Shown: in pieces, positions 12,779-14,319 of the stretch | How the letters are laid out: each line of letters begins with the position of its first letter | How positions within the stretch are numbered: the first letter of the stretch is position 1 | Assembly: GCF_034092465.1 (NCBI RefSeq) | Contig: NZ_CP139303.1 | Span: 772,865 to 836,864 of the forward strand | Source: Prochlorococcus sp. MIT 1223 | GTDB lineage: Bacteria; Cyanobacteriota; Cyanobacteriia; PCC-6307; Cyanobiaceae | DNA length: 64,000 bases | Direction of reading: 5' to 3' | Translations under genes and position numbers: made by a program | Notes under the pieces: generated by a model | Databases searched by the model: none | What the model saw: the letters and a program-made list of their open reading frames with translations, nothing else | What the model was told of the DNA's origin: nothing

Positions 12779-13252
12779 ATGTTCCGTAAGGTTCTCTCAG
12801 CAATTTTCAATAAAATTCCTGTTCAAACAGTTCATGCTCATTGTGATGGACCTTGCGGGGTATACGATCCTGCTTCTGCAAGAGTTGCAGCAGAAGCAGT
12901 TTTGTCTATGACTAAAAAGATTCTTGCACTCGAACTACCAACAGGTAACGATGCAAAAGCATGGGCCAATTACAACAACACATTTTCTAGATACGTTGCA
13001 ATAAAAGAAGATCAAGCTAAAGAAACAAAAAAAGAACTTTTAATTCTTTGGACTGATTATTTCAAGCCTGAGCATCTAGCAACTTTCCCAGACCTACATG
13101 AAACTTTCTGGCAAGCTTCTAAACTCTGCAGTGCGACCAAGGTAAATGTTGATCAAGACAAGGCAGAAGAATTAATGCAATCAGTAGAGAAGATACACAA
13201 TATGTTCTGGCAGTCGAAAGGAAGATCTGATAAATGGGTTACTGCGAGCTAA
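12779..13252 (+). CDS. sodN: Nickel superoxide dismutase precursor
   Basis: 157 residues. The nickel hook His-Cys-Asp-Gly-Pro-Cys-Gly is at residues 21-27 after a 20-residue propeptide ending in VHA; after cleavage the new N-terminal His and the two Cys bind nickel. The remaining helical region matches the four-helix Ni-SOD fold. Marine picocyanobacteria use this enzyme in place of iron SOD, which lowers iron demand. The next gene, sodX, encodes the peptidase expected to remove the propeptide, and a nickel-type transporter lies just beyond. Confidence 0.97.
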   Translation: MFRKVLSAIFNKIPVQTVHAHCDGPCGVYDPASARVAAEAVLSMTKKILALELPTGNDAKAWANYNNTFSRYVAIKEDQAKETKKELLILWTDYFKPEHLATFPDLHETFWQASKLCSATKVNVDQDKAEELMQSVEKIHNMFWQSKGRSDKWVTAS

Positions 13253-13319
13253 TTACAAGATAAAAATAAAAAAAGCAAACTTATACCATCTTTTACTTCT
13301 GATAATTGGCAAAAGGTTT

Positions 13320-13643
13320 ATTTGCCGAGTTAAAGGTATCTCCATGCTTCCTACTCTGAAGCATGGAGATTTAGTAATTTATAAAGCTATCAATATAAAT
13401 TACATAAATGATTGTTTAGAAAAAGGGAGTATTGTAATAAGCAAGCATCCTTTAAAAGCTAATTATTTAATAGTTAAACGTCTAGAAAGGAAAGAAAAAG
13501 ATAAATATTTTATAATTGGTGATAATAAGGATTTCAGTAAAGATAGCAGACATTTTGGTTTTATTCAGAAACAAAATCTAGTAGGTATAGCAGAATCTTT
13601 CTTATCTTTACCAATATTAAATAAAAGTTCAGATGGAAAATAA
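13320..13643 (+). CDS. sodX: Nickel-type superoxide dismutase maturation peptidase SodX (non-standard start)
   Basis: S26 signal-peptidase-like protein. The motif GISMLPTL contains the catalytic Ser just before the ATG at 13344, so starting there would remove the active-site residue. Upstream in frame the reading frame stays open into sodN, but no ATG, GTG or TTG occurs. The start at 13320 (ATT, preceded by AAAAGG) is my choice; CTG 13299 and ATT 13305 are alternatives. Downstream, YLIVKRLE contains the likely general-base Lys and GDNKDFSKDSRHFG is the S26 box. It should cleave the SodN propeptide. Gap to sodN is 67 bp. Confidence 0.85.
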   Translation: MCRVKGISMLPTLKHGDLVIYKAININYINDCLEKGSIVISKHPLKANYLIVKRLERKEKDKYFIIGDNKDFSKDSRHFGFIQKQNLVGIAESFLSLPILNKSSDGK

Positions 13644-13653
13644 AATCATTTAA

Positions 13654-14319
13654 TCAGCCAATTATCGGATTTTTCTGAAGCCAAAACAAACCGGTTACAA
13701 TTGAAAGACCACCTGTAAATCCTAATAACCTTGGAGATATTTTCTGTCCCGCCTTCATAGAAGTAAATGAAATGCCCAATACAACTGAGGCCATTGCAGC
13801 CATAGAACCAAGAAGATAGGCAAATATATAAGAAATGGCTCCTAATGTTGGTAAAGCTAAAGCTGGGATTACAGCAAGTAGATGACTTGCACCAGCCATT
13901 CCATGAATAAGACCCAATCCAGTAGAGGCATGGGTATGACGTCCATGAATCTTTCTACCTAATAAATGCAAGTGAACATGATGATGCTGATTAGCACTTC
14001 CATGTTGATGATTATGAATATGAATATTCAACCCAAGAGATGTTTTTATTGCAATAGTACCAACAATTAAAAGAGTTATTCCAACTATAGATTCAGCAAC
14101 TGAAGATAGCTGCTCAATATTCACTAAGTCTTTGGCAACAACAGCCAAAGAGGCAAGCAAAACAACACCTGTCGAATGCCCTAAACCCCAAGCAAGGCCA
14201 TCCCTTAAAGCTAGTCTTGGCTTATTTATTGCAGTTGGAGCCATGGCGACCAAGTGATCAGCCCCACCAACCACATGGATAGCTCCCGCCGCAAAACCAG
14301 TCAAAATACTTATAAGCAT
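13654..14319 (-). CDS. NiCoT/NicO-type nickel or cobalt transporter
   Basis: 221 residues, largely hydrophobic, with about six membrane segments. Near the N-terminus HVVGGADHL resembles the HX4-5DH metal motif of nickel/cobalt transporters, and GLGHSTGV resembles their LGHSTVV motif. A cytoplasmic-type loop at about 104-135 is very His-rich (HIHNHQHG, HHHVHLHLLG, HGRHTH), as in NicO/RcnA proteins. The gene is convergent with sodX, 10 bp between stops, so import of nickel for the dismutase is the likely role. Related proteins are sometimes misnamed hydantoin utilisation protein. Confidence 0.8.
   Translation of the reverse strand: MLISILTGFAAGAIHVVGGADHLVAMAPTAINKPRLALRDGLAWGLGHSTGVVLLASLAVVAKDLVNIEQLSSVAESIVGITLLIVGTIAIKTSLGLNIHIHNHQHGSANQHHHVHLHLLGRKIHGRHTHASTGLGLIHGMAGASHLLAVIPALALPTLGAISYIFAYLLGSMAAMASVVLGISFTSMKAGQKISPRLLGFTGGLSIVTGLFWLQKNPIIG

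Follow-up and report, generated by a model that had tools for sequence, protein, structure and literature searches.

A Prochlorococcus gene for the nickel superoxide dismutase maturation protease that appears to lack an ATG, GTG or TTG start codon

The window, a 64,000-nucleotide stretch of DNA from Prochlorococcus sp. MIT 1223, carries two adjacent plus-strand genes of the nickel superoxide dismutase (NiSOD) system. The first, sodN (12779..13252), encodes a nickel superoxide dismutase of 157 amino acids (TIGR02753, 222.7 bits; PF09055, 1.2e-49) and ends in TAA at 13250-13252. The second, sodX, has sodN immediately upstream, the location expected of a sod_Ni_protease gene; its open frame, including a TAA stop, occupies 13188..13643 and follows an in-frame TAG at 13185-13187 that lies within sodN. 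The catalytic Ser is encoded by TCC at 13341..13343 (position 7 of TIGR02754) and the next codon, at 13344..13346, is the first in-frame ATG. The first-pass annotation of this DNA described a frame that is open back into sodN and has no ATG, GTG or TTG (standard starts, below) upstream of the Ser codon, and the sequence bears this out for the 51 codons that separate the Ser from TAG 13185. It also placed the Ser codon correctly, directly before ATG 13344, and rightly warned that start-finding tools would cut off the Ser: for a gene finder, ATG 13344 is a false start. The best explanation, held with a probability of roughly two in three, is that sodX in the window is an intact NiSOD-maturation protease gene without a standard start, probably begun at a near-cognate codon by ribosomes that have just finished sodN.

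Against TIGR02754 (sod_Ni_protease), whose NCBIfam cut-off is 63.25, the sodX frame reaches 81.1 bits; begun at ATG 13344, it scores 70.2 bits and the Ser is lost. The S26 box reads GISMLPTL, with Ser before Met, and the translation contains both YLIVKRL, the box for the general-base Lys (its Lys is the residue that we take, from knowledge of the family, to have this role), and GDNKDFSKDSRHFG, which corresponds to the box GDN...S.DSR.FG. The resemblance to TIGR02754 SodX (peptidase family S26) thus covers the score, the place of the Ser, the sodN neighbor, and a hydrophobic N-terminal stretch. In the genome itself, a single contig of 1.80 Mb, a search with sodX gave one match, and a scan of wider contig sets with the SodX protein gave one unrelated locus in genome contigs and none in viral contigs. 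Convergent with sodX, on the minus strand at 13654-14319, is a gene for a His-rich protein of 221 amino acids without a match in Pfam; its position and composition suggest that it is perhaps the nickel transporter sodT of the literature.

Of 400 genomes from the family, 220 had SodX protein matches, and 215 sodX loci that are distinct around the Ser, from the family and outgroups, were kept for comparison. Codons are numbered from the catalytic Ser (0), with negative numbers upstream. Loci were grouped by sequence motif and gap length, under labels chosen in this analysis: HL is a large low-GC genus, g17 (n=71); G56 is genus g56 and close kin (n=27); SYN comprises the marine-Synechococcus-like genera g4 and g34 (n=48); LL, to which the window belongs, is a diverse set of all other family loci (n=60); and OUT consists of cyanobacteria from outside the family (n=8). 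One locus, L203, falls outside all groups. Codon changes were counted by parsimony on trees from sodN and sodX. Many of the relatives are draft assemblies, and loci of one clade are kin, so that the counts overstate independent events.

Between the upstream stop and codon -18, an in-frame ATG, GTG or TTG is absent from 71/71 HL, 21/60 LL, and 19/48 SYN loci, and 68 of the 71 HL loci lack a standard start over the whole stretch 5' of the Ser. Outgroup sodX genes differ in this respect from that of the window: all eight have a standard start, located between codons -25 and -30. All 27 G56 loci have GTG or ATG at -37, within sodN. The same absence recurs in many genera, which is more than would be expected by chance. 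The catalytic Ser is kept in 285/285 aligned loci, so the relatives do not share a loss of the active site, an outcome that would have spoken against the first-pass interpretation. The HL Ser codon has undergone 18 inferred changes, every one at the third position and, judged from substitutions of this kind, the catalytic part of sodX evolves like a functional protein. TTG accounts for 2 of the 239 Leu codons in the N-terminal part of HL sodX versus 34 of 469 in the body, a comparison that ignores kinship and is suggestive of avoidance of TTG in the N-terminal codons.

The position at which coding begins is clearest in HL. Inferred changes at second codon positions number 11 at -26, but only 2 at -25 and 2 at -24; by this measure, codon-like constraint starts at -25/-24. 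ATT or ATC is found at codon -24 in 67/71 loci, 2-11 nt past the sodN stop, and 70/71 have an in-frame ATT or ATC no more than about 11 nt 3' of that stop, in all three relative frames. If all near-cognate codons (ATT, ATC, ATA, CTG) between the stop and -20 are considered, the sodX frame has one in 70/71 loci versus 13/71 and 5/71 for the other two frames. In-frame stops occur between codons -25 and -46, in most cases coinciding with the sodN stop or close to it. By elimination, since the start is confined to the spacer, HL sodX almost certainly starts at AUU or AUC at codon -24/-25. One low-GC locus, L091 (G348), differs in the spacer by a few bases and has no AUU or AUC at -24/-25; it has TTG at codon -17, and its frame is unlike that of most kin. 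SYN loci without a standard start have ATT or ATC at -25 in 15/19 cases, directly before the conserved GCA GCA GCA GGT, and most likely begin at this AUC or AUU.

In LL, second-position changes drop from 23 at -21 to 7 at -20, and constraint is therefore apparent from -20. Codons -20 to -12 encode a hydrophobic run in which T is retained at second positions and third positions change (0 versus 26 changes at -17, 1 versus 15 at -14), followed by Gly at -11 in 53/60 loci and Arg at -9 in 48/60. Conservation among these 60 relatives supports coding for 13275..13643 of the window, the conserved pieces being A-N-L (13275-13283), the hydrophobic run from 13281, G-x-R (13308-13316), the catalytic domain, and the stop. 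The A-N-L at -22 to -20 is shared with L003, L018, and L023; in the looser form A/x-N/S-L/W, the pattern also includes L024. Given the constraint from -20 and the shared Ala-Asn-Leu, the start in the window should lie 5' of about 13281 and probably 5' of 13275. The codons left as starts are ATA 13266, ATA 13260, and AAG 13257 in the spacer and CTG 13242 and CTG 13227 in sodN. The start is most likely AUA: ATA at 13266..13268, in the sodX frame and 13 nt past the end of sodN, is the best single candidate, since no other AUN codon upstream of the conserved part lies closer to it, with ATA at 13260..13262 as the alternative, and a CTG within sodN is possible. LL loci without a standard start show a modest excess of near-cognate codons in the spacer, with one in frame in 17/21 versus 12 and 5 in the other frames. 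No single start rule covers all loci, however, because four LL loci (L018, L019, L033, and L073) and one SYN locus (L169) have neither a standard start nor any AUN or CUG from the sodN stop to -20.

Two of the explanations offered in the first-pass annotation fare poorly against these comparisons. From the window alone, a lesion or sequencing error that removed the start of this one gene could not be excluded, but the same lack in many assemblies from many genera, together with an intact frame and Ser, leaves almost no room for it. The proposed starts, ATT 13320 (-7, the preferred one, behind AAAAGG), ATT 13305 (-12), and CTG 13299 (-14), are in frame as described and would leave the hydrophobic stretch upstream untranslated. 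The AAAAGG just 5' of ATT 13320 is compatible with such a start, as is the ATG at -13 of the sister locus L002, beside these positions; all three codons, however, lie inside the stretch conserved at the protein level, 3' of the point from which second codon positions hardly change while third positions do, and an Asp or Glu at -18 is common to low-GC, Synechococcus-like, and outgroup loci. A start at any of them is very improbable.

Initiation further upstream is harder to dismiss. If sodX started within sodN, in a +1 overlap, the codon in the window would be CTG at 13227..13229, the sodN position of the GTG/ATG site of G56, or CTG at 13242..13244. In G56, the inferred changes at this site are solely between GTG and ATG, and about 17 LL loci also have GTG or ATG at -36 to -40; on the other hand, conserved sodN residues (x-Asp) determine which codon stands there, the other mod-1 LL loci read CAG in 14/50 and CTG in 20/50 cases, and in-frame stops exclude such a start in the low-GC clade and in L004, L005, L011, L032, and L100. 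For the window, this is an unlikely reading, though the strongest of the competitors. A SodN-SodX fusion, made by +1 frameshifting or stop readthrough, would suit the window and most of LL, where sodX is +1 to sodN (50/60 loci) with about 50 codons open upstream; preserved multiples of three would be expected anyway, since the gap is mostly sodX coding sequence. The fixed frame relation and open junction of programmed frameshifting are not found among the relatives: HL uses all three frames, with in-frame stops near the sodN stop, frames 0 and +2 occur in LL too, and in L005 ribosomes would have to read through two TAA codons. Fusion is thus improbable, as is the readthrough product that the first-pass annotation listed, given the varying frames and intervening stops; the annotation's other options, a rare codon and/or coupling, are the best explanation. 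It is also conceivable, but doubtful, that the identity of the codon matters little to ribosomes that end sodN and begin again on sodX. A conserved gene would then have stayed functional in many species with no start codon in common; if this were true, L018, L019, L033, L073, and L169 would be its clearest cases.

Initiation at a near-cognate codon coupled to the sodN stop probably fits best, given the short distance from that stop and the near-cognate codon; the coupling, the codon in the window, and dosage as the reason are all inferred. Ribosomes finishing sodN would re-start a few bases downstream on sodX, at a near-cognate codon instead of ATG, GTG, or TTG. The sodN-to-Ser gap of HL falls in all three frames (8, 11, and 52 loci), and ATT or ATC is present in each of them, which favors coupled initiation at AUU/AUC over frameshifting. 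Shine-Dalgarno-like motifs with at least five matches showed no clear enrichment in the spacer (11 observed versus 6.8 expected in LL, 0 in HL). As a control for AUU use, infC was readable with the pattern in only 1/6 loci, and that infC starts with ATG, which leaves the control uninformative. Weak initiation would yield little protease beside its abundant substrate SodN, and a low dose would suit SodX because, as a catalyst, each copy can process many SodN molecules; dosage control may thus be the reason for the unusual start.

A different feature is found in the N-terminal codons of SYN sodX: 46/48 loci have a terminator-like hairpin there (energy z-score below -2, mean -4.6), and codons -25 to -12 have unusually few third-position changes. 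The stem, GCAGCAGCAGGUC / GACCUGCUGCUGC, is at most 13 pairs long, and a U run comes after it; an example is L142 1552-1602 (minus strand), with 40 further aligned loci in alignment A1. The helix pairs in 95.3% of cells versus 22-66% when slid by 1-3 columns, one pair has seven C-G to U-A double changes, and synonymous recodings give a weaker stem than the native codons (mean z -3.6 for the native stem against them). The alternation of TTG and CTG at codon -16 in SYN corresponds to a G-U/G-C swap in the stem. The hairpin resembles an intrinsic terminator of sodN embedded in sodX codons and, if so, it would also hold sodX low. The sodX start region of the window has no RNA structure (fold z = -0.22) and no terminator-like site, and HL N-terminal codons have no SYN-like hairpin; in LL, a quarter of the loci show some structure in excess at these codons. 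L012 has a hairpin of another sequence, not that of SYN, in the start region of sodX, where codons -24 to -17 are the perfect palindrome AAAGGAGUGAAUAUUCACUCCUUU.

In E. coli, infC and pcnB are examples of bacterial genes that start with AUU, and IF3 mediates the autoregulation of infC. As in sodX, a rare near-cognate start could keep expression of these genes low; however, their AUU is kept at one place, while the codon and place of the sodX start vary by lineage, and sodX follows its substrate gene. Translationally coupled gene pairs resemble sodN-sodX in the short gap from the upstream stop to conserved coding sequence, in any frame, but in such pairs the restart is usually at AUG or GUG. 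Of 61,358 ancestral AUG starts reconstructed in a survey of start switches, one had changed to AUU, an extremely rare event (PMC5622118).

The genes sodN, sodX, and sodT have been described as core in Prochlorococcus (PMC10119275), and our literature searches returned no report of a missing sodX start. Ten sodN-bearing cyanobacteria have been reported to be without sodX, four of them picocyanobacteria without any other SOD (PMC8346466). Gene finders that accept only ATG, GTG, or TTG must either truncate sodX behind the active-site Ser or miss it, and missed annotation could contribute to these reported absences. A Prochlorococcus gene described as core seems to be without a standard start across whole clades, and the three frame arrangements in close relatives offer a natural test bed for coupled AUU initiation.
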